Assembly (NCBI GenBank): GCA_017420535.1 | Contig: JAFOIV010000039.1 | Span: 1-44,654, forward strand | Origin: Eubacterium sp. | GTDB lineage: Bacteria; Bacillota; Clostridia; Lachnospirales; Lachnospiraceae | Reading direction: 5' to 3' | DNA length: 44,654 bases | Part shown: positions 21,003-35,973 of the stretch, one piece after another | Layout of the letters: each line of letters begins with the position of its first letter | Position numbering within the stretch: position 1 is the first letter of the stretch | Program-made: the position numbers and the translations under genes | Notes under the pieces: generated by a model | Told to the model about the DNA's origin: nothing | What the model saw: the letters and a program-made list of their open reading frames with translations, nothing else | Database searches by the model: none

Positions 21003-22463
21003 TTAAGATACTGTTATTTCTTTATATCTATCTGAATTTAAAACGGAAAGCATCATTTCTTCTGGAGTCATTCCTATGGAATTCATAAGTGTCTTAAATG
21101 TTGAGGCACTCTGGCCAGAACAAAGCTGAACACCCTTTCTCTTTGAATCGACATGGAATATATCATTTCTAGAATTCACATTCCAGAAAACGATATTAGG
21201 GATACTATATCCTGCTTCCTCGTATCTATTTCTAATGTGGTCATAGAAGCTCCAGTCGTTTGAAACACAATAATCAATTTCCATATCTGAAACAACAATG
21301 ATCGACTTTACCATTTCATCAGCCGGAACATGATTATTCTTTGCAACTGTAAGGATACATTTAAATGCGGCTTCAAGGTTTGTATTCATTCCCCAGCTGA
21401 CCTTTTTAAGAAAATTAACTTTTTGATCAAGCTTTTCTCCCTTAAGTTCTACGATTGAAGGGGATGCAGAAAATGTCATAAACATATTGTGATATGCGCC
21501 AACATTTCTCTCAGCAAAATACATTGCAAGTCCTATTGAAGAAGCAAGCGGTCTTCCCTTTGCACATGTCATAGAACCAGAAACATCTGCCATAACTATG
21601 GCATTAGTTCCATTTTCTACATAATCTGGAAGCTGTCTCCACTGAGCTTCAAGTGTATCATCATATCCATTCTTATAAAGTATCTTTTCAACTATATCAT
21701 AAGGATACAATGTAGAAGAGTTGATCTTTTCCTCTCCCTTTAAAGCTTTTCGGATAAAATCAGAAAATCCCTCTTCATCATGTCTAAGAAATGCATCTCT
21801 ATATATCATCATAGCCCGGCTTGGTACTGCGGAATATTTGATCTTATCCCACTGACCCAAAGACATATATGTTTCAACTATTCCAATATGCTTACGGAGC
21901 TTTCTAAGGATACGCTTAAAATCATATACTGAATATCCAAGCTTAATTGCAGTCTTTATTCCAAGAGTTCTTGTTCTCTTACTGCTTGCATCGGGAGTCT
22001 TGATCCACTTAGCAAGCATAGAGATGGCATTTTTCTCTTTATAATTTGCTATATCCTCTTCAAGCTGAGTCTTCATTACAGCCCACATCTCTTCTTCTAC
22101 AGGTGTATCTATTAGACAATAGAGATCATCATAGCGCCCAAATACTCCTATAAGATCAAGGTTTGGAATGATCGCCTCCTGATGATAATTTGCCAGATAC
22201 TTTATAAGTACCCTAAATACTCGTCTTTCTCCAAGGCCGCTACGAATATCTCTTGCATAGAATAGAATCTTGGTCGCCATCAACTTATCTTCCTTAAAAG
22301 CTTCTACAAAAAGTCTCTCGATCTCGGATTCATTTCTGTTTCTAAGAGAACCTATTGAACCAAAAAGATCAACGCAGGCGCTGCCTGAAGTGTTATATGC
22401 ACTGGCACCATTCTCTGTAAATGTCTTTCTTCCTTCATTCTTTAATGCATCTATAAAATTCAT
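21003..22463 (-). CDS. DUF2828 protein: TROVE-like helical repeats plus vWA domain
   Basis: A 486-residue soluble protein. The N-terminal two thirds are helical and match the DUF2828 pattern: NGASAYNTSGSACVDLFGSI near residue 20, ILFYARDIRSGLGERRVFR near 85 and LDLIGVFGRYDDL near 120. This resembles the TROVE ring of Ro60. The C-terminal third is a von Willebrand A domain with the metal site DVSGSM near residue 293 and further MIDAS residues (MNTN near 356, SDMEID near 393). Ro60-type proteins bind misfolded RNAs and Y RNAs. Here the long leader encodes a tRNA-like RNA, which supports an RNA-binding role by analogy. The start follows AAGGTAAGAAAAG. Confidence 0.85.
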   Translation of the reverse strand: MNFIDALKNEGRKTFTENGASAYNTSGSACVDLFGSIGSLRNRNESEIERLFVEAFKEDKLMATKILFYARDIRSGLGERRVFRVLIKYLANYHQEAIIPNLDLIGVFGRYDDLYCLIDTPVEEEMWAVMKTQLEEDIANYKEKNAISMLAKWIKTPDASSKRTRTLGIKTAIKLGYSVYDFKRILRKLRKHIGIVETYMSLGQWDKIKYSAVPSRAMMIYRDAFLRHDEEGFSDFIRKALKGEEKINSSTLYPYDIVEKILYKNGYDDTLEAQWRQLPDYVENGTNAIVMADVSGSMTCAKGRPLASSIGLAMYFAERNVGAYHNMFMTFSASPSIVELKGEKLDQKVNFLKKVSWGMNTNLEAAFKCILTVAKNNHVPADEMVKSIIVVSDMEIDYCVSNDWSFYDHIRNRYEEAGYSIPNIVFWNVNSRNDIFHVDSKRKGVQLCSGQSASTFKTLMNSIGMTPEEMMLSVLNSDRYKEITVS

Positions 22464-22500
22464 CTTTTCTTACCTTTTTAACCTTTCCAAAATAAACTGT

Positions 22501-22530
22501 TGATACACTTTCAAATCCAGAAAGGTATCA
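22501..22530 (-). promoter_or_regulatory. Hairpin in the DUF2828 gene leader
   Basis: TGATAC-CTTTC, loop TGGATTT, GAAAG-T-GTATCA on the minus strand: an 11-bp stem with one bulge, about 37 nt before the start codon. It separates the leader RNAs from the coding region and could be a processing site. Confidence 0.6.
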
Positions 22531-22578
22531 GGACGCATTTTTCTATGTAAAGTAGAAAATAATTGCTGTTAGCGTCCC
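22531..22578 (-). ncRNA. Second structured leader element sharing a 12-mer with the tRNA-like RNA
   Basis: The outer stem GGACGC (minus strand, from 22577) pairs with GCGTCC (to 22531), and the inner stem TTTTCTA/TAGAAAA forms a terminal hairpin. CTAACAGCAATT follows the outer 5' strand. The same 12-mer lies inside the anticodon-arm replacement of the tRNA-like RNA (22637-22648), also right after a stem. A shared motif at equivalent positions suggests a common protein-binding site. Whether it is a separate RNA is unknown. Confidence 0.45.
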
Positions 22579-22583
22579 ATTAG

Positions 22584-22701
22584 CGGGGAGAGAAGGGCTT
22601 GAACCTTCAACAAACTAAATCTTAATCTTGTGATCAATTGCTGTTAGTGTAACAGTCATTACACCTTTTTTTCGCTGCTCTACCACTTGAGCTATCTCCC
22701 C
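22584..22701 (-). ncRNA. tRNA-like RNA with the anticodon arm replaced (candidate YrlA/Y-RNA-like)
   Basis: On the minus strand, GGGGAGA (22701-22695) pairs perfectly with TCTCCCC (22591-22585) as an acceptor stem. TA and a D arm follow, with GCTC, loop AAGTGGTA and GAGC. The T arm is GAAGG, TTCAAGC, CCTTC, with five perfect pairs and the TTC start of a T loop. The discriminator is G and the next bases are CTA. Between A26 and the T arm, where 22 nt are normal, there are 68 nt. These form GTGTAA/TTACAC and TTGATC/GATTAA hairpins but no 5-bp anticodon stem. This is not a functional tRNA. It lies about 120 nt upstream of the DUF2828 gene, as Y RNAs lie beside Ro60 genes. Confidence 0.75.
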
Positions 22702-22836
22702 TTATTTAATTCTATCCAGCTATAAAAATCATTTAATCGCTGTTCCTCATCGGATGTTTATATAATACATTCTTAAAATAGATTAATCTCGGAAAAAAAG
22801 TTGCGAAGATAAATAATCGACGTACGGACAAAAAAA

Positions 22837-22905
22837 TAGACGTAAATGCAAAAATAAAATAGACGCAAATACAAAAATTAAATAGACCCAAATATAAAAT
22901 AGACG
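22837..22905. repeat. Short AT-rich tandem repeat
   Basis: ATAGACG recurs at 22837, 22859 and 22899, with ATAGACC at 22882, in an A-rich context with 17-23 bp steps. It lies between the terminator of the surface-protein gene and the tRNA-like RNA. The remaining bases of 22702-22836 contain a TATTATATAA segment that could be a promoter for the RNA, but no clear -35 box. Confidence 0.55.
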
Positions 22906-22960
22906 CTCAAGCAATTCCTCCAGCGGTTAAATTTACCCTTTGGAGGAATTCTTTCGCGTC
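22902..22960 (-). terminator. Strong hairpin terminator region of the surface-protein gene
   Basis: On the minus strand, GACGC...GAATTCCTCCA pairs with TGGAGGAATT...GCGTC, a stem of about 17 pairs with a small internal mismatch and a 17-nt loop. T-rich sequence follows. It lies 120 bp after the surface-protein stop. The stretch between (22961-23079) holds nothing else that I can identify. Confidence 0.7.
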
Positions 22961-23079
22961 TTTATTTTTACTGGTTTGTTAACTTTATATAAGACTTTGT
23001 GCCTGTTTTTTATTGGAACTGGTTGGAGATACTTTATATAGGACTCTGCAGTTTATATTATGAAATAATTTATTTATAC

Positions 23080-26000
23080 TTATCTCCTGCGCTTCTTTTC
23101 ATCAAGTTTACTGCGGAGATTGCATAATGCAAAGATAACGCACATTGATAGTACCATAACAAGGAAAATCAGCTGTACATTAACTGTATCACCCGTTTCT
23201 GGCGTAACATCAGCCTTTTTATTATTAAGAGTAGTATCTGATTTCTTTTCCTCAGATTTTTCTTTTATTGTGAATTTTACTGTAACAGAGTTACCGTCAT
23301 CAAAGTTCGCAGTAAGCAGATGATCTCCTACAGCAAGTGTTTCAAGATACTCCGGCTTAAGTGTTATAACTACACTACCGCTTACAGCAGTATAGTTTGA
23401 TGCATCTACAGCTTTACTTTCTACATCAATACCTGTAAAGTGGCCAAATGTAAGCTCATCATCCACAGATCTCTTAAATACAAATTCACATCCTGCATTA
23501 GAGCCCTTTGTCCAAACAGCTCTATCACCGGAATAATTGCTATATCTGATGTCCCCTTCCGGATTTACTGTTTTCTCTACTACTGTCAGCGTTCCTTCTT
23601 TTGTATTAACTGTAAATTGCTTTGTAAGATCATTTCCGTCCGCATCAGTAACAACAGGTGTTCCAGAAATCTTTACCGGATATGTTCCGACTTCAGTTCC
23701 CTTAGCTGATGCTTCAATCCCTGATACGGTATATATCACATCATTTATTATAAATTCTGTAGACTCAATACCTGATACCTCATGCTCTGTACCATCATAT
23801 GTGAAATTACCACTGTTTGCTACAACGGTAATTTCATACCTTACATCTTTGTCAGAGCCTTCTTCATCTTCAGCTTTTCTATCTGTAATAGTAAGTATTC
23901 CTTCTACTGATGTGATTTCATAATTATCTGCATTTGTTCCTTCGTTCAAAGTATATGTAAATGAATTCCTGGTTTCACCCGGCAGTTTTCTTGTTCCTGT
24001 CACCTTATATTCAGCCCCTTCTCCTTCTGCCCATCCGTCACCGGAAACTGTTACTTCTGCATTTGTAAGTTCTTTTCCATCATAAGCCTTACTGTCTGAT
24101 GCTGATGTAAGTGTTACATTTCTCTTATTAATTACTATGTTTCCTGCTACCGGGGTAACACTGAATTCACTTGATACATCATTTCCTTCCGCATCAATAA
24201 CAACAGGTGTTCCGGTAATATTTACAGTATACTCACCGACATCAGCACCTGTGCCCTCTGCTGTCAGCCCCGATAAAGTATAGATATGAGTAGTTTCATC
24301 ATCTGTGGCTACCTCAAATGTATCAGTCACAAAGCCTGTTACAGAATGCTCACTTCCATCATAGGTAAATTCACCACTATTTGCCTTCGGAATGATCTCA
24401 TACTTAGCCAATCTGTTAGTTACTGTTAATGTACCTTCCTGCGAGGTTATACTATAATTGTCAGGATTTGTACCTTCATTTAATGTATATGTAAATGTAT
24501 TTGCGCTGCTTCCAACAACAAGCTGGTTTCCGGTAACATCAAATGATGCTCCTTCTCCATCTGCAAATCCATCACCTGTAATCTCGACATTATCATTTGT
24601 AAGTGGCTCTCCATCATATTGCTTTGTCTCTGAAGCGGATGTAAATGAAACATTTCTTGTATCTATAACCAATTGTCCGGGAACTATATTAACTATAAAC
24701 TGCTTAGTCAGATCTTTATCATCACTATTCTTAACTAAAGGAGTTCCTGTTACAACAACATCATATGTTCCGGCATCTGTTCCTATAACAGAAGCACTCA
24801 GCCCTGATACAGTATATGTCACATCATCACATAGAAACTCAAGTGTTTTAAAACCTGAAACTTCATGTTCATTTCCATCATATGTAACATTGTCACTATT
24901 TACCTCAACATTTATCTCATATTTTTCAGTTCTGTCATTAACTGTAAGCTTGTTAATTACCTTGCTAATATTGTAATTATGTTCTTTAGTATTATTATTA
25001 AGCGTATAAGTAAATCCATTATCTGAAGCTCCTGGAAGTGTCTGGGTACCGGTTACATTGTAAGTTGCCCCTTCTCCTTCTGCCCATCCGTCACCTGTTA
25101 CAGTAATATTATTATTAGTTAATGGTTTTCCGTCATAATCCTTACTGTCTTCTGCTGATGTAAGCGTTACATTACGCTTTGCTATAGCTGCCTCTACACA
25201 GGCAGGTTCAGAATCTAAATGATCCTTATCACCTTTTACCTTATACCATACATAGTAGGTTCCGGCGCTGATAGCGGTGGGAATATTTGTGCTCCAGCCG
25301 GTTGTCGGTGCTGTGAACGCATCTGTTCCGAGAGCATACTGCATTGTACCGCCTTCAGCTTCTCCGGCGGTTATAAGTTCCTGAGCCTGACCGGTGTAGG
25401 TCAGATTCTTTGCTTCCGGTGCCGTTGTAACTGTGGAAGCAGGAAGTTCAGGGAACGCCATCTTCTTAAGTGTATCAATTGACTGACCTTCACTGCTGAT
25501 GGGAATAGTAGTTTTGCTTGTGTTATCTTCCGGGTCTGTCCAACCGGTACCGGCAATCGCATTTTTCAAATAGTTAATTGCCTTAACGCCTCCTATCGCA
25601 ACTACCATCGCGTTCTCACTAATCGTCACAGCACTCGTTTGATAATTAACATCCCTCAAGCCTGAATGGATTCCTGTTCCTGTTTGTCCTATAGCATTTA
25701 CCTTACCGGATATGATATTGACTCCATACCCATATTTCTGTGTCTGAATACCATTTAACGCTCCTTCAACATTTATCTCAGCATCTTTTATAGTAAGAGC
25801 ATATGCTTCAATACCGACTGAATAATTACCGCTTCCTTTTACTGTAAGTTTTCCAGCTCCGGAAATTGTAATATTTCTACTACTTTCGATACCAATCTGA
25901 ACATTGCCGGTTACTCCAACTTTGTTATCAGAGTCTTCTGATAGAACGATACTAAGACTATCATTTCCACTATAATATATTCCCCTGGAAGAATTATAAC

Positions 26001-28731
26001 CGGGTTCTGTATAACCTGCAGCAATATCAACTCCGTTCAATGTAAGCGTATTAGTATCCACATCGTAGCTTACCGTTGCACCTTCATCCGTATCACCAAG
26101 CACGTCGTCTTTGTTCTCGCTCGTCACCTGTACGCCGCCGACCCAAAGGGGATACTCAACGACCGGCGTCAACTCAAATTTCTTCGTGCTAGAATCAAAC
26201 GTCACCTTGCTCAGGTCGAGCTTTAAAGCGGGGCGGACACCGTACTCATACCAGGGATTATCGCCAGAACTGGAAACTTCGCCGTCTTCGCAGCACACAC
26301 GCGCCGCCTTGCTAGAATCTAAGCCGCGCGAGCGCAGCCACCAGTAATAGCTCATTGCCGTGGAGCATTTTCTTACATCTTCGCTCAATCCCTCTGCTTC
26401 CGATGTGCTGAGAAGCCAGAGCTTTGCATCGACTTCACTATCGCTATTTGAACCCCTCACCTTAACAGTCACGATGGCATCAGCCACAGCCTCAAAGGTA
26501 CCGTCTGTACCTGTCAGACTATCCAGATAATCCTTTACGAGGGATGTGCTGTATACATAGACACTGTTTTGAGACTCATGGAATTGCAATGCTCTAATCG
26601 GATCTTTAGAAAGCAGCGTGACTGTCCCGGCATCTACTGCTGTTGAATCATCCGCTATGATGTACCAATCCATGTCATTAAACTCCACTGATGTAGTGGT
26701 GTTCACTAAACTTGCATAGGAATTTCCGGCATACGCATTCACCGTAACATTGCAACTGGCGCTCTTCTCACTGTCAGCATTGCTGGTGCATGTGACGGTT
26801 GCGTTGCCCGCTGAGATACCCTTGGCATAGACGGTCAGGGTTTCGGTGGCTGTATCCAATGTGACCGCAGTTTCACAAGCCTCGTCGGAATACAACGTCA
26901 CAGCGTCAGCATTTGTTCCACCAACGCTCCACTTCACCGTTTTGTCCGATGCGTTGTCGGGAGCGACAGTAGCGTTAAAGGAGACCGTATCGCCCACGGT
27001 AACCGTCTGTGCAGTGGTCTTGTCAAGGGTCACACCGGTGACGGCAACAGACGAATTCACCACCGTGAAAGTATTGCTTGTTGAATCAAATGTCACCTTG
27101 CTTAGGTCGAGCTTTAAAGCAGGGCGGACGCCAAGCTCCGATGAGAGGTTTTTACCGTCTTCGTCGAATTCACCGGTATCGCCGTCCACGACTGCCGCAT
27201 AGTAATAGTCGTAACCCTGCGAACAGAGCCACCATATATTTTCTTCAGCGTCAGATGCCTCAGAGCACTTTAGCACATCAGGGTTTGCATTATGGATTGT
27301 ATCTGCCTCATCAGTTGACAGAAGGAACATCTTGTTATCACTAACTGCTGTTTTAGCACCTGTTGAAATACTTTCCGCATAGTAATTATTTACGGCAGAT
27401 TCCACTGTAGAACCAGCGTATGTGTTCTCTGAGCCAAACCGCGATGCCCCAACACATTCTTTTGAAAGCAGCGTTACAGTACTATCATCATAATCGATAA
27501 GATACCAGTGCTTGCCGTCAAAAGTTATTTCTGTTGTGGTATTTTTTAGGCTTGCATAAGAAATTGTTGTATTGCCTGCATTCACCGTCACATTGCAGCT
27601 CGCAGATTTTGTGCTGTCCGCATTGCTGGTCGCTGTAACAGTGGCCGAACCTGCCGCTGTGCCCTTAGCGTAAACGGTCAGGGTGGAAGTGGCATCCGCG
27701 CCAATCTCATTGCCTGCAGTGCAATTTTCATCAGAATACAACGTCACACCGCCGGTCGTGCTCCACTTCACCGTCTTGTCCGTAGCACCGTCAGGCGCAA
27801 CGGTAGCGGTAAAAGCGACTGTTCCGTCTATATCGATTGTCTGCGTAGTGGTCTCGTTGAGTGACACGCTGGTGACCAATATAGGTTCAAATTTTATATA
27901 CTGTTTTGAGGAAGTGTTGTCGGTCACGGATGTCCAATTAGTATTGTCTTCGCTTTCCTCGGCATTTCCGGTGATGGATCCATATACAGCTTGACCAAAA
28001 TTGCCATTATAAGCATAGGCATCGCTACCTTTAGTTCCACCGTTACCGCCAGTTATAGTGGCAGATCCACCGTTAACAATGACGTCGCCTACACCATATC
28101 CTCCATCTCCACCGTTACCATAATTATAACCGTTACCGCCATTTCCACCAACAACAGTGATAGAACCGCCATTGACAATGACAACCCCAGATATACCAGA
28201 ATAACCTTCACCGCCTTCGCTACTGCCGCCTTCGCTACTGCCGGCTTCACCGTTACCGCCGTTAACGCAGACCAATCCACTCTTGACTGTAACATTACCG
28301 TAAACACCTTGTGCTCCTCCGGTTACTTGGACAGTTGCACCATCAACGATAAGGTTTCCACCAATACCAACAAGCGCTGGGTGGCCATCCTCTTCCGCGG
28401 GAGCGTTGACGATCAGTGTTCCTCCACCCGAAACAGTAAGGATAGAGTCATTATCACAATAGATTGCAGCATAGCTTACATAGTCGGATTGACCGTTGAT
28501 GGTCAGTGTCTTGCCTTCGGGAATCGTTAGTGTAATATCGGCATTAACCGTGACATTGTTATTAATCGTTACATCACCGGCAATGACTGAATTCTCGGAC
28601 CATGTCGTAGATTCACTGTTCAGTGTTTCAGCATACGCTGTCATGCCCAGCACCGGCACCAGCCCGACGACCAGCGCCAGCGTGAGCAAAAAACTCAGCA
28701 GCTTCCTTCCTAATTTTTGTTTTTTCTTCAT
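23080..28731 (-). CDS. Very large mosaic wall-anchored surface protein (Big_2, DUF6273, MBG repeats)
   Basis: An 1883-residue protein. A signal peptide (residues 1-34, ending AYAET) is followed by a Gly-rich beta-helix-like region (to about 275). Two cassettes of bacterial Ig-like domain plus DUF6273 follow (about 283-560 and 562-865), each closing with GVRPALKLDLSKVTFDS. Next come a second beta-helix region (about 870-1080), three long MBG-type repeats of about 155 residues (1175-1690; KRNVTLTSAxDSKxYDGK...), an X2-like domain (1700-1800), and a sorting tail TPETGD plus a hydrophobic helix plus KKRRR. The tail implies sortase anchoring. It probably mediates adhesion or glycan contact. The cassette region (26.1-27.9 kb) is visibly richer in G+C than the MBG region, a sign of domain shuffling. 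GAGGAGGA precedes the start. Confidence 0.9.
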   Translation of the reverse strand: MKKKQKLGRKLLSFLLTLALVVGLVPVLGMTAYAETLNSESTTWSENSVIAGDVTINNNVTVNADITLTIPEGKTLTINGQSDYVSYAAIYCDNDSILTVSGGGTLIVNAPAEEDGHPALVGIGGNLIVDGATVQVTGGAQGVYGNVTVKSGLVCVNGGNGEAGSSEGGSSEGGEGYSGISGVVIVNGGSITVVGGNGGNGYNYGNGGDGGYGVGDVIVNGGSATITGGNGGTKGSDAYAYNGNFGQAVYGSITGNAEESEDNTNWTSVTDNTSSKQYIKFEPILVTSVSLNETTTQTIDIDGTVAFTATVAPDGATDKTVKWSTTGGVTLYSDENCTAGNEIGADATSTLTVYAKGTAAGSATVTATSNADSTKSASCNVTVNAGNTTISYASLKNTTTEITFDGKHWYLIDYDDSTVTLLSKECVGASRFGSENTYAGSTVESAVNNYYAESISTGAKTAVSDNKMFLLSTDEADTIHNANPDVLKCSEASDAEENIWWLCSQGYDYYYAAVVDGDTGEFDEDGKNLSSELGVRPALKLDLSKVTFDSTSNTFTVVNSSVAVTGVTLDKTTAQTVTVGDTVSFNATVAPDNASDKTVKWSVGGTNADAVTLYSDEACETAVTLDTATETLTVYAKGISAGNATVTCTSNADSEKSASCNVTVNAYAGNSYASLVNTTTSVEFNDMDWYIIADDSTAVDAGTVTLLSKDPIRALQFHESQNSVYVYSTSLVKDYLDSLTGTDGTFEAVADAIVTVKVRGSNSDSEVDAKLWLLSTSEAEGLSEDVRKCSTAMSYYWWLRSRGLDSSKAARVCCEDGEVSSSGDNPWYEYGVRPALKLDLSKVTFDSSTKKFELTPVVEYPLWVGGVQVTSENKDDVLGDTDEGATVSYDVDTNTLTLNGVDIAAGYTEPGYNSSRGIYYSGNDSLSIVLSEDSDNKVGVTGNVQIGIESSRNITISGAGKLTVKGSGNYSVGIEAYALTIKDAEINVEGALNGIQTQKYGYGVNIISGKVNAIGQTGTGIHSGLRDVNYQTSAVTISENAMVVAIGGVKAINYLKNAIAGTGWTDPEDNTSKTTIPISSEGQSIDTLKKMAFPELPASTVTTAPEAKNLTYTGQAQELITAGEAEGGTMQYALGTDAFTAPTTGWSTNIPTAISAGTYYVWYKVKGDKDHLDSEPACVEAAIAKRNVTLTSAEDSKDYDGKPLTNNNITVTGDGWAEGEGATYNVTGTQTLPGASDNGFTYTLNNNTKEHNYNISKVINKLTVNDRTEKYEINVEVNSDNVTYDGNEHEVSGFKTLEFLCDDVTYTVSGLSASVIGTDAGTYDVVVTGTPLVKNSDDKDLTKQFIVNIVPGQLVIDTRNVSFTSASETKQYDGEPLTNDNVEITGDGFADGEGASFDVTGNQLVVGSSANTFTYTLNEGTNPDNYSITSQEGTLTVTNRLAKYEIIPKANSGEFTYDGSEHSVTGFVTDTFEVATDDETTHIYTLSGLTAEGTGADVGEYTVNITGTPVVIDAEGNDVSSEFSVTPVAGNIVINKRNVTLTSASDSKAYDGKELTNAEVTVSGDGWAEGEGAEYKVTGTRKLPGETRNSFTYTLNEGTNADNYEITSVEGILTITDRKAEDEEGSDKDVRYEITVVANSGNFTYDGTEHEVSGIESTEFIINDVIYTVSGIEASAKGTEVGTYPVKISGTPVVTDADGNDLTKQFTVNTKEGTLTVVEKTVNPEGDIRYSNYSGDRAVWTKGSNAGCEFVFKRSVDDELTFGHFTGIDVESKAVDASNYTAVSGSVVITLKPEYLETLAVGDHLLTANFDDGNSVTVKFTIKEKSEEKKSDTTLNNKKADVTPETGDTVNVQLIFLVMVLSMCVIFALCNLRSKLDEKKRRR

Positions 28732-34836: not shown

Positions 34837-35973
34837 TTAGCTCATTCCGCCAGCCTTGTAGTTATAGACAGGTTTTATTATCTTATCGATTCTTATGGTA
34901 TCCCTGATCACTTTTGCAATATCATCTATCTTTCTATATGCAAATGGGCTTTCGTCCAGCGTATCCTTATTGATACAGATTGAATGAATACCTTCCATTT
35001 CCTTTTTAAACTCTGACACTGTGTGATGCTCTACTACTTCTGATCTGCGGTAAATTCTTCCTGCTCCGTGTGGCGCAGAGTAATTCCATTCAGGATTTCC
35101 AAGTCCCGTTCCAAGGATTATCCCGTCACGCATATTGATAGGAATTATCACTCTCTCACCATCTTTTGCACTGATGGCACCTTTCCTTAGGAGTGGGGCA
35201 TTTCCAGAGAAATCAACATAATTATGGACTACGCAAAAACTGTCCTCAACCTTCCATTTCATCCCTTTTACAATGGATTCAATGATAGCTTCCCTGTTGA
35301 TACGGGCGAAATCCTGGATTATCTCTAGATCATAAAAGTAGTCCTCCATAAGTTCCCCCGTAAGGCTGGTCATTTCATAAGAAGCATAACCCTGCTTTTT
35401 TCTTTGCATTTCCTTTTGCCCGGCACGTAGGTAATACTCCGCAACTTCTATCCCTAAGTGCCTGCTTCCTGAGTGGACCGTCAGATAAATATTTTCTTCC
35501 TCATCTTTATCAACTTCAATAAAATGATTCCCTCCCCCTAGAGTTCCTATGCTCAGCTTTGCTTTCGCTTCACTTATAGATTTTGCAGACTTAAGTTTCG
35601 AAAGGTCGATCCTATCTGCAAATTTATGCTCTTTTCTTTGTATTGCAGGGCCCACGGGAACATTTTCCCTGATAACGCTGTCGAGCTGCTGAAACTGAAG
35701 GGCCTTTGACTTTATCTTTGCAATAGTCATTCCACAGCCGATATCAACTCCCACAAGGCTTGGAAGTATTACATCTTTCACAGTCATTGTAAAGCCTATG
35801 GTTCCGACTTTTCCTGGGTGAACATCCGGCATAACACGGATCTTAGAGCCTTGTGCAACCGGATTATCACATATCATCTGCAGCTGTTTTCTTGCATATT
35901 CATCAAGGGAATATAGCTCATTTTCAACTGTATAAACTTTTGCATTAGTATATTTTCCATATATTGTAATCAT
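34837..35973 (-). CDS. rtcB: RtcB-family RNA ligase
   Basis: A 378-residue protein, slightly shorter than E. coli RtcB. Metal and nucleotide motifs are intact: MPDVHPGKVGTIGF, GVDIGCGM (Asp and Cys metal ligands), LGGGNHFIEV, VHSGSRHLG, and SAPHGAGRIYRRSE near residue 300, whose His would carry GMP. RtcB joins 2',3'-cyclic phosphate and 5'-OH RNA ends using GTP and Mn, in tRNA splicing or repair. No archease gene is seen. It follows a small Cys-rich protein gene by 24 bp. The DUF2828/tRNA-like RNA genes 12 kb away may belong to the same biology. Confidence 0.95.
   Translation of the reverse strand: MITIYGKYTNAKVYTVENELYSLDEYARKQLQMICDNPVAQGSKIRVMPDVHPGKVGTIGFTMTVKDVILPSLVGVDIGCGMTIAKIKSKALQFQQLDSVIRENVPVGPAIQRKEHKFADRIDLSKLKSAKSISEAKAKLSIGTLGGGNHFIEVDKDEEENIYLTVHSGSRHLGIEVAEYYLRAGQKEMQRKKQGYASYEMTSLTGELMEDYFYDLEIIQDFARINREAIIESIVKGMKWKVEDSFCVVHNYVDFSGNAPLLRKGAISAKDGERVIIPINMRDGIILGTGLGNPEWNYSAPHGAGRIYRRSEVVEHHTVSEFKKEMEGIHSICINKDTLDESPFAYRKIDDIAKVIRDTIRIDKIIKPVYNYKAGGMS

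Follow-up and report, generated by a model that had tools for sequence, protein, structure and literature searches.

Genomic context and Ro-like nature of the DUF2828 protein

The window, a stretch of 44,654 nucleotides from Eubacterium sp. (Lachnospiraceae), carries on its minus strand (21003..22463) a gene coding for a Ro-like protein of 486 amino acids, which consists of DUF2828 and the vWA-like DUF7788 (Pfam, E = 4.6e-40 and 1.3e-47, respectively; PF11443, DUF2828, scores 138.2 bits against a cut-off of 29). The protein also matches PHROG 850, annotated as "RNA-binding protein" (E = 1.2e-137). It is the sole DUF2828 match in the 2.67-Mb source genome, and proteins 97–99% identical to it are encoded at two named Lachnospiraceae loci. 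Two RNA elements, referred to below as class A (22584..22701) and class B (22529..22578), are located on the coding strand, 66–238 nt upstream of the ATG. Directly upstream of them, at 23080-28731 on the minus strand, is the gene for a repetitive protein of 1883 amino acids with DUF6273 and weak Big_2 and CBM_X2 matches, for which no connection to the class A RNA is apparent. A promoter scan gave nothing on the relevant strand, and no terminator-like site was found in 22400-23080. An RtcB RNA ligase (34837..35973, minus strand; Pfam RtcB, 1.8e-57) is encoded 12 kb upstream of the DUF2828 gene, at one of the three places in the genome where RtcB occurs. By tblastn, 11 of 37 bacterial loci (L011, L012, L014, L017, L022, L023, L025, L026, L027, L029 and L034) have an RtcB homologue no more than 0.5 kb from DUF2828, a raw count over a set of 37 that includes near-duplicates; in two viral loci the distance is at most 4 kb. 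Operons combining rsr, Y RNA and rtcB genes (rsr-yrl-rtcBA), as well as Rsr-Y RNA-PNPase, are described in a passage of PMC7790460.

The sequence comparisons indicate that DUF2828, with its vWA-type domain, is distantly homologous to TROVE/Ro60. Comparing an alignment of 58 DUF2828 sequences with a TROVE alignment gave a probability of 92 and an E-value of 6.7e-7 over 378 columns, among them those of the DxSGSM metal site in the vWA portion, for a single pair of profiles with five TROVE sequences (all from Bacillota) and without database correction of the E-value. This profile match and the vWA-type domain support the TROVE-like/vWA nature ascribed to the gene in the preliminary description. 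In a sequence-only search, TROVE chains in the PDB match DUF2828 only at E = 2, and a sequence search of solved structures returned only weak vWA matches, the best with E = 0.045. According to Pfam, the four phage proteins tested are composed of DUF2828 and DUF7788, and the TROVE control of TROVE and vWA_Ro60; the "Ro-like RNA binding protein" of mycobacteriophage UPIE is DUF2828+DUF7788, and CKA15_055 of a Listeria phage is DUF2828. DUF2828 proteins match 681 of the 50,697 phage records searched. TROVE was found in none of the 397 genomes of the bacterial family, in a search whose controls were positive in 1 of 14, and in 7 of 348 genomes sampled from the phylum as a whole. PADLOC returned nothing for four proteins.

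Structure of the class A RNA

Read along the minus strand from 22701 to 22584, the class A RNA has the layout GGGGAGA / TA / GCTC-AAGTGGTA-GAGC / 68 nt / GAAGG-TTCAAGC-CCTTC / TCTCCCC-G, in which an acceptor stem, a D arm (22677..22692) and a T arm (22592..22608) are combined with 68 nt replacing the anticodon arm and variable loop. The coordinates, strand and arms are as originally proposed and are recovered both by a structure-only scan, which finds 7, 4 and 5 pairs in the acceptor, D and T stems, and by the Rfam tRNA model (RF00005), which scores 42.0 bits (cut-off 29) and places the insert at the position of the anticodon arm. ARAGORN made no tRNA call in the whole window. Two hairpins had been described in the insert, of which the first, GGTGTAAT-GACT-GTTACACT (22646..22665), is conserved and covarying, while the second lies in a variable stretch. 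The conserved feature that had been left unnamed is the ACAGCAA sequence (22638..22644) right after the first hairpin, hereafter the tag. Folding of the RNA gave z = -3.18, 2 of 200 shuffled sequences folding equally well, and a class A covariance model (R1) scores it at 107.5 bits, the window copy itself being part of the R1 seed.

Conservation in bacteria and phages

DUF2828 was found in 40 of the 397 genomes of the family, 30 of which were retrieved as loci; a further seven loci were taken from named contigs, and 80 viral ones were kept from at least 389. The structure-only scan, which applies rules for the acceptor, D and T arms and ignores the tag, was run over 120 DUF2828 loci and gave 161 distinct hits with an insert of at least 40 nt, 130 of them scoring 15 or more. 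ACAGC is present in 83 of these 130 (class A), spread over 53 of the 120 loci, leaving 47 long-insert tRNA-like hits without ACAGC and 67 loci where no class A RNA was found. The same scan of the antisense strand of the same loci gave 15 hits, of which one scores at least 15 and none contains ACAGC. Insert lengths in class A range from 42 to 80 nt (median 67), although the shortest one (L088) reads ACAGCC and may be a chance match. CCA is encoded in six of the 83 copies, and two or three copies stand in tandem in six loci (L002, L005, L024, L033, L035 and L037).

In an alignment of 25 copies, 92.2% of the cells of the acceptor stem, insert hairpin and T arm are paired, with two-sided changes at 18 of 22 pairs and in 133 cells (36 when shuffled); the covariation score is 0.666 compared to 0.178 for shuffled alignments, none of 500 shuffles being as good. 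The insert hairpin (helix 3 of alignment A1) is paired in 93.4% of cells and all six of its pairs have changed on both sides. The D arm is paired in just 73% of cells, because seven Leu-like copies are unpaired in those columns. Support for a short stem that may replace the anticodon stem is modest to weak: at least five pairs can form there in 26 of the 83 copies, compared to a mean of 15.9 and a maximum of 25 after swapping (300 runs).

The class A model matches 43 of the 80 viral DUF2828 loci at more than 60 bits, none of them part of the seed, and 14 of the 397 family genomes, 13 of which possess DUF2828. Twelve of these 14 genomes contributed sequences to the seed, and the independent finds are therefore G047, where the RNA lies beside a DUF2828 gene, and G131 alone. 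No match above 60 bits was obtained in 27 of the 40 DUF2828-bearing family genomes, in a search that used stricter filters; an extra copy near the DUF2828 gene of G118 scores 53 bits. The weaker matches listed (up to about 49 bits, mostly 73 nt long) are taken to be ordinary tRNAs. Listeria phage CKA15 has no class A RNA at a recognisable score. In Synechococcus phage B23, a class A RNA with the tag variant ACTGCAA (L183 4369-4478, plus strand; 78.8 bits) is found 0.4 kb downstream of the DUF2828 gene and is annotated as "tRNA-Undet-???"; similarly, ARAGORN reports the copy of L020 as "tRNA-???". Another copy (L006 3053-3165, minus strand) adjoins a cluster of tRNA genes and directly precedes the DUF2828 gene. 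The RNA of G131 (L068 6091-6206, plus strand; 95.9 bits) carries ACAGCAA, and no DUF2828 was found in this genome by protein search, by tblastn in the 14 kb around the RNA, or in a Pfam search whose controls were equally silent. The nearest gene downstream of the G131 RNA looks, from reading its sequence, like a nicotinamidase.

The tRNA-like element of the window is thus real and conserved rather than due to chance, since its fold recurs beside DUF2828 genes, covaries, and is nearly absent from the antisense strand. That a conserved tRNA-mimicking RNA accompanies the DUF2828 gene, as had been suggested, is upheld by the same recurrence and by the folding and covariation results. Neither a tRNA interrupted in one strain only nor a lack of conservation near DUF2828 was observed, and a recent insertion in a single strain was rejected, the fold and the insert both recurring and covarying near DUF2828 genes. 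The location assigned to the element, the leader of the gene, is too narrow: 56 of the 83 copies precede the DUF2828 gene and 27 follow it, 75 of them within 1.5 kb. Copies of the tag-bearing RNAs also occur kilobases away, at L069 2741-2845 (7.6 kb upstream) and in Aeromonas phage 4_4572 (4.4 kb from the gene).

The ACAGCAA tag and the class B stem-loop

When 7-mers in the 1-kb flanks of 111 DUF2828 loci (dereplicated from 134) were ranked by the number of sense minus antisense loci, ACAGCAA came first (102 and 10 loci, respectively), followed by words overlapping it, words from the tRNA arms and two A-rich words. Before dereplication, the near flanks of 120 loci (233 kb) contain ACAGCAA 302 times in sense and 16 times in antisense, compared to 139 and 47 times in the further flanks (633 kb). 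At least one near sense copy is present in 112 of the 120 loci, and eight have none within 1 kb. The tag is found within 300 nt upstream of the gene in 92 loci; within 1 kb, it is upstream only in 75, downstream only in 13 and on both sides in 24. Downstream tags are found in phage FelixO1, mycobacteriophages UPIE and Bromden, and a Staphylococcus phage. Fourteen further loci were inspected from 700 nt upstream to 900 nt downstream, and the tag is present in 10 and absent in four (Twort-like, Synechococcus B23, Aeh1 and Kae01). Five intact TROVE loci have three sense ACAGCAA sites in their flanks, one each at three loci, which is about background density. In 80 of the 83 class A RNAs, a hairpin of at least four pairs ends 0–3 nt ahead of ACAGC.

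The tag also occurs outside class A. In the window, the class B element (22529..22578, minus strand) is a stem-loop of the form GGGACGC-TA-ACAGCAA-variable-GCGTCC-TG, and the region 22527-22582 folds with z = -3.20, 1 of 200 shuffles being as good. The general plan, a stem strand, nn-ACAGCAA, a variable loop, the second strand and UG, was looked for at the 243 [A/G]CAGCAA sites that lie outside class A in the 111 loci. A stem of at least six Watson-Crick pairs closes 181 of them (mean 29.6, maximum 42 after swapping the 3' parts), and one of at least seven pairs closes 141 (mean 9.9, maximum 18; 100 runs), with UG following the stem in 101 of the latter. Under a stricter rule that requires UG and allows longer loops, 109 sites are closed, compared to a mean of 7.2 and a maximum of 10 after swapping. 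A crude classifier for further classes (C and D) assigned 90 of the 243 sites to class B, 16 to a T arm only, two to D and one to C, and left 134 unclosed. In alignment A5 of class B, 99.4% of cells are paired, a value that is partly so by construction because the sequences were selected by stem and CTG; 20 cells have changed on both sides, compared to four when shuffled. Stems of this kind were seen by eye near the gene in phages of Enterococcus, Aeromonas, Salmonella (FelixO1), Campylobacter, Fusobacterium, Mycobacterium and Staphylococcus, and in a Bacillus plasmid. Class B is the commoner companion of DUF2828, with a site having a stem of at least six pairs and UG in 76 of 111 loci, compared to 53 of 120 loci for class A.

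A proposed common helix in several topologies

The order of elements in class B is strand a, nn-ACAGCAA, loop, strand a', UG, whereas the hairpin of class A reads strand a', loop, strand a, nn-ACAGCAA. We infer that both are one helix with its 3' extension, circularly permuted. UG is found at the junction of strand and loop in 54 of 80 class A hairpins, compared to 0.29 per random insert 6-mer. Further arrangements are met with in other loci. In mycobacteriophage UPIE, a stem bearing GCAGCAA encloses a T arm and then a D arm, 125 nt downstream of the DUF2828 gene; this element scores 39.8 bits with the Rfam YrlA model (RF02553, cut-off 69). Because of the order of its parts, the YrlA-like form and class A appear to be circular permutations of each other. 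In L025 (1368-1463), L011, L027 and L029, class B stems enclose a tRNA-like body, and ARAGORN finds a tRNA in L025, L027 and L029; by eye, the body in the class B loop of L025, L029 and others has its arms in the natural order. The tRNA body and the tag helix would accordingly be joined in at least three ways, namely with the helix in the anticodon loop, around a permuted tRNA, and around a body of natural order.

Similarity to the Class I RNAs of Dictyostelium

A scan of the window stretch with 4227 Rfam families placed the Dictyostelium Class I RNA family (RF01414) on the class B element, with 21.9 bits and E = 0.1, a value that has no significance by itself. All RF01414 hits are below the cut-off of 41.5 bits, the best one reaching 29.8. 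The position of the hits was examined in whole viral records. A first set comprises 27 of 80 records, 12 of which already had a class B candidate when chosen, and has a hit (E ≤ 1) in 24, the best hit being within 2 kb of DUF2828 and on the same strand in 16 (0.50 expected). A second set, 50 of the 53 other viral records, has a hit in 33 and the best one near DUF2828 in 15 (2.11 expected). Taken together, 57 records have a hit, and in 31 of them the best one lies no more than 2 kb from DUF2828 (about 2.6 expected); 20 of the 77 records have none. In Aeromonas phage 4_4572 (103 kb), eight of nine hits fall in the 4.5 kb upstream of DUF2828 (record positions 75474-79907, seven of them from 78940 on), the best with 29.8 bits and E = 5.8e-5; L176 1521-2488 (plus strand) of this phage is an array of Class I-like stem-loops.

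Among 17 named records, 15 have a hit. The best one is near DUF2828 in eight, which are CKA15, FelixO1, the Campylobacter, Fusobacterium and Staphylococcus CoN phages, a Bacillus phage and a near-identical plasmid (1.3 kb off), and Aeromonas 4_4572 (4.4 kb off). It is elsewhere in seven (phiN3, Twort-like, Vibrio, B23, Aeh1, Kae01 and, 4.9 kb off, Enterococcus), and the two mycobacteriophages have no hit. Of the bacterial genomes, 14 of 14 match at E ≤ 10, nearly all far from DUF2828, compared to 8 of 14 controls; this whole-genome search scored 150 of 2933 candidates, and the window element is not among the matches listed. At E ≤ 1, seven of 14 control genomes match in one search, and seven and five in two others. 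Since large control genomes also match weakly, single weak RF01414 hits mean little. The likeness of Class I RNA and class B possibly reflects homology, convergence on a common protein surface, or a chance similarity of short motifs.

Proposed role and alternative explanations

The best reading of the class A RNA, in light of these comparisons, is that of a Y-RNA-like partner of a Ro-like protein which is nevertheless not YrlA. The element probably gives rise to a small noncoding RNA working in trans, with the protein of the neighbouring DUF2828 gene as its partner; action in trans is argued for by the copies that sit downstream of the gene or several kilobases from it, while the RNA of G131, for which no DUF2828 gene was found, counts against such a partnership. 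The protein would bind a short helix, one strand of which continues 3' into nn-ACAGCAA, a handle that class A would present in the anticodon loop of a tRNA body and class B on its own. The tRNA body may be processed in the manner of a tRNA and could serve as a second binding surface beside the handle, through which the Ro-like protein would meet a tRNA-recognising factor or tRNA-like competition. The particle might then help to survey, degrade or repair structured RNA, in parallel with Rsr-Y RNA beside RtcB; a role involving structured or damaged RNA would be expected by analogy with Rsr-Y RNA-PNPase and rsr-yrl-rtcBA, and the linkage to RtcB suggests RNA repair.

It is less probable, and on balance unlikely, that the elements are a cis-acting leader, in which the tRNA-like structure and the stem-loop would sit in the 5' UTR and control how the DUF2828 mRNA is translated or degraded, for instance through binding of the protein to its own leader or through titration of a processing enzyme by tRNA mimicry. 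Both window elements do precede the ATG on the coding strand, no terminator-like site was found in 22400-23080, and most loci have their tag within 300 nt upstream or, within 1 kb, upstream only; autoregulation would also be compatible with the partner role. A leader, however, does not account for the loci with tags downstream only or on both sides (FelixO1, UPIE, Bromden and the Staphylococcus phage being among those with downstream tags), the 27 downstream class A copies, the RNA copies kilobases away in L069 and Aeromonas 4_4572, or the G131 RNA. We consider it more unlikely still that class A is a decoy tRNA directed against anticodon nucleases or tRNA-targeting toxins, with the DUF2828 protein as its chaperone. 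The RNA has a tRNA-shaped body with no anticodon to cut and occurs in tRNA-rich phages, and a passage of PMC7790460 suggests that YrlA could compete with an anticodon nuclease; but class B is commoner and has no tRNA part, so that the function of the protein seems not to need a tRNA decoy. Finally, an aberrant real tRNA, or a tRNA gene (possibly phage-borne) interrupted by an insertion or intron, would fit the RF00005 score above cut-off, the L006 copy beside tRNA genes and the undetermined tRNA calls in L020 and B23, but is mainly refuted and very improbable, as no anticodon loop remains, ARAGORN is silent in the window, and the insert structure and tag are kept across many genomes, unlike a mobile element.

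Relation to earlier reports and significance

The preliminary description held that a Y RNA principle was not established for this protein family. This is true in part: phage "Ro-like" proteins and mycobacteriophage Y RNAs were already known, and the class A form is unreported in our searches. According to passages of PMC12282133, Y RNAs have been identified in mycobacteriophages (citing Chen 2014), and an Rsr/Y RNA pair has been suggested in a Listeria phage. The same paper reports an HHpred match to Rsr for CKA15_055 and detects this protein in purified particles of the phage, although its authors warn that proteins found in this way need not be true components of the particle. A passage of PMC7824862 mentions TROVE proteins in some jumbo phages, with a tRNA-like partner in cellular organisms. 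The most abundant CKA15 transcript region (26,236-26,727) is interpreted in PMC12282133 as an siRNA or Y RNA. This RNA was rejected as a class A RNA, as the region (26,195-26,746 of CKA15, or L164 3696-4247, minus strand) matches ROOL RNA (RF03087) with 90.1 bits, just under the cut-off of 99.1. Three class B stem-loops are located between this ROOL-like region and the CKA15 DUF2828 gene. In the open-licence literature, no published report was found of the class A form, of ACAGCAA together with DUF2828, or of a link to Class I RNAs.

DUF2828 is found in 681 of 50,697 phage records and 40 of 397 family genomes, and its putative partner RNAs are not annotated as such in the stretches examined. 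With a defined tag, they can be annotated in well-studied phages such as FelixO1 and offered for an immediate binding test. Two Ro-type systems would separate, one pairing TROVE with Y RNAs and the other pairing DUF2828 with ACAGCAA RNAs, and several fusions to tRNA bodies would show that tRNA mimicry was built by permuting two parts. If the similarity to Class I RNAs is real, direct tests of their binding partners and function in social amoebae become possible, and the claim that they are confined to dictyostelids would have to be revised. We tentatively propose, with somewhat more doubt than confidence, that a module of DUF2828 and a helix running into ACAGCAA is common to phages, bacteria and social amoebae, that the abundant Class I RNAs of Dictyostelium are Y RNAs of a DUF2828 protein, and that, in phages and bacteria, tRNA bodies have been joined to the module in three or more ways.

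Comparison with known systems

Phage genes annotated as "Ro-like RNA binding protein" or PHROG 850 belong to the same protein family as the window gene. Their annotation is limited to the protein, the tag-bearing RNAs being unannotated as such in the stretches examined and in some cases overlapping annotated small ORFs (e.g. CoNPh3_CDS0028 and TJCWGUJI_CDS0134).

Class I RNAs have, according to passages of PMC7919456, a 6-bp stem, an 11-nt motif adjoining its 5' strand and a CUGU end, and their genes are reported there as restricted to dictyostelids. They resemble class B in having a stem that joins the 5' and 3' ends, with the motif (Rfam consensus CCUUACAGCAA) or ACAGCAA beside the 5' strand, and a variable loop, the window element measuring 50 nt compared to about 60 nt. 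The 3' end is CUGU in Class I RNA and CUGAU in the class B element of the window, the closing CTG having been part of the A5 selection. Of the four interactors reported for Class I RNA, the RRM protein Rnp1A is the direct partner.

With tRNA (RF00005), class A shares the acceptor, D and T arms and a discriminator base, and the L006 copy adjoins tRNA genes. It differs in having, instead of an anticodon stem and 7-nt loop, an insert of 42–80 nt with a hairpin and ACAGC; an ordinary tRNA was rejected for the window element, which has no anticodon loop and gives no ARAGORN call.

YrlA (RF02553), a bacterial Y RNA of Ro60 (Rsr), is, like class A, encoded beside a Ro-family protein, has tRNA-like D and T arms and a stem serving as protein handle (putative for the window RNA), and lies in the neighbourhood of RtcB in some genomes. 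The label "YrlA-like" initially given to the window RNA could nevertheless not be kept, and membership in that family was rejected, as RF02553 does not match 22400-22800 even at E ≤ 10 and the arm order is circularly permuted: in YrlA, the T arm precedes the D arm and the RNA ends at the protein-binding stem, whereas in the window RNA D precedes T and the RNA ends at the acceptor stem. The partner of YrlA is a TROVE protein, while the neighbour of the window RNA is DUF2828+DUF7788. The ends of class A pair as an acceptor stem, whereas those of class B form a closing stem of their own, as the ends of YrlA do. The ACAGCAA tag is missing from the Rfam YrlA consensus and is carried by class A, whose putative handle, unlike that of YrlA, sits in the anticodon loop.
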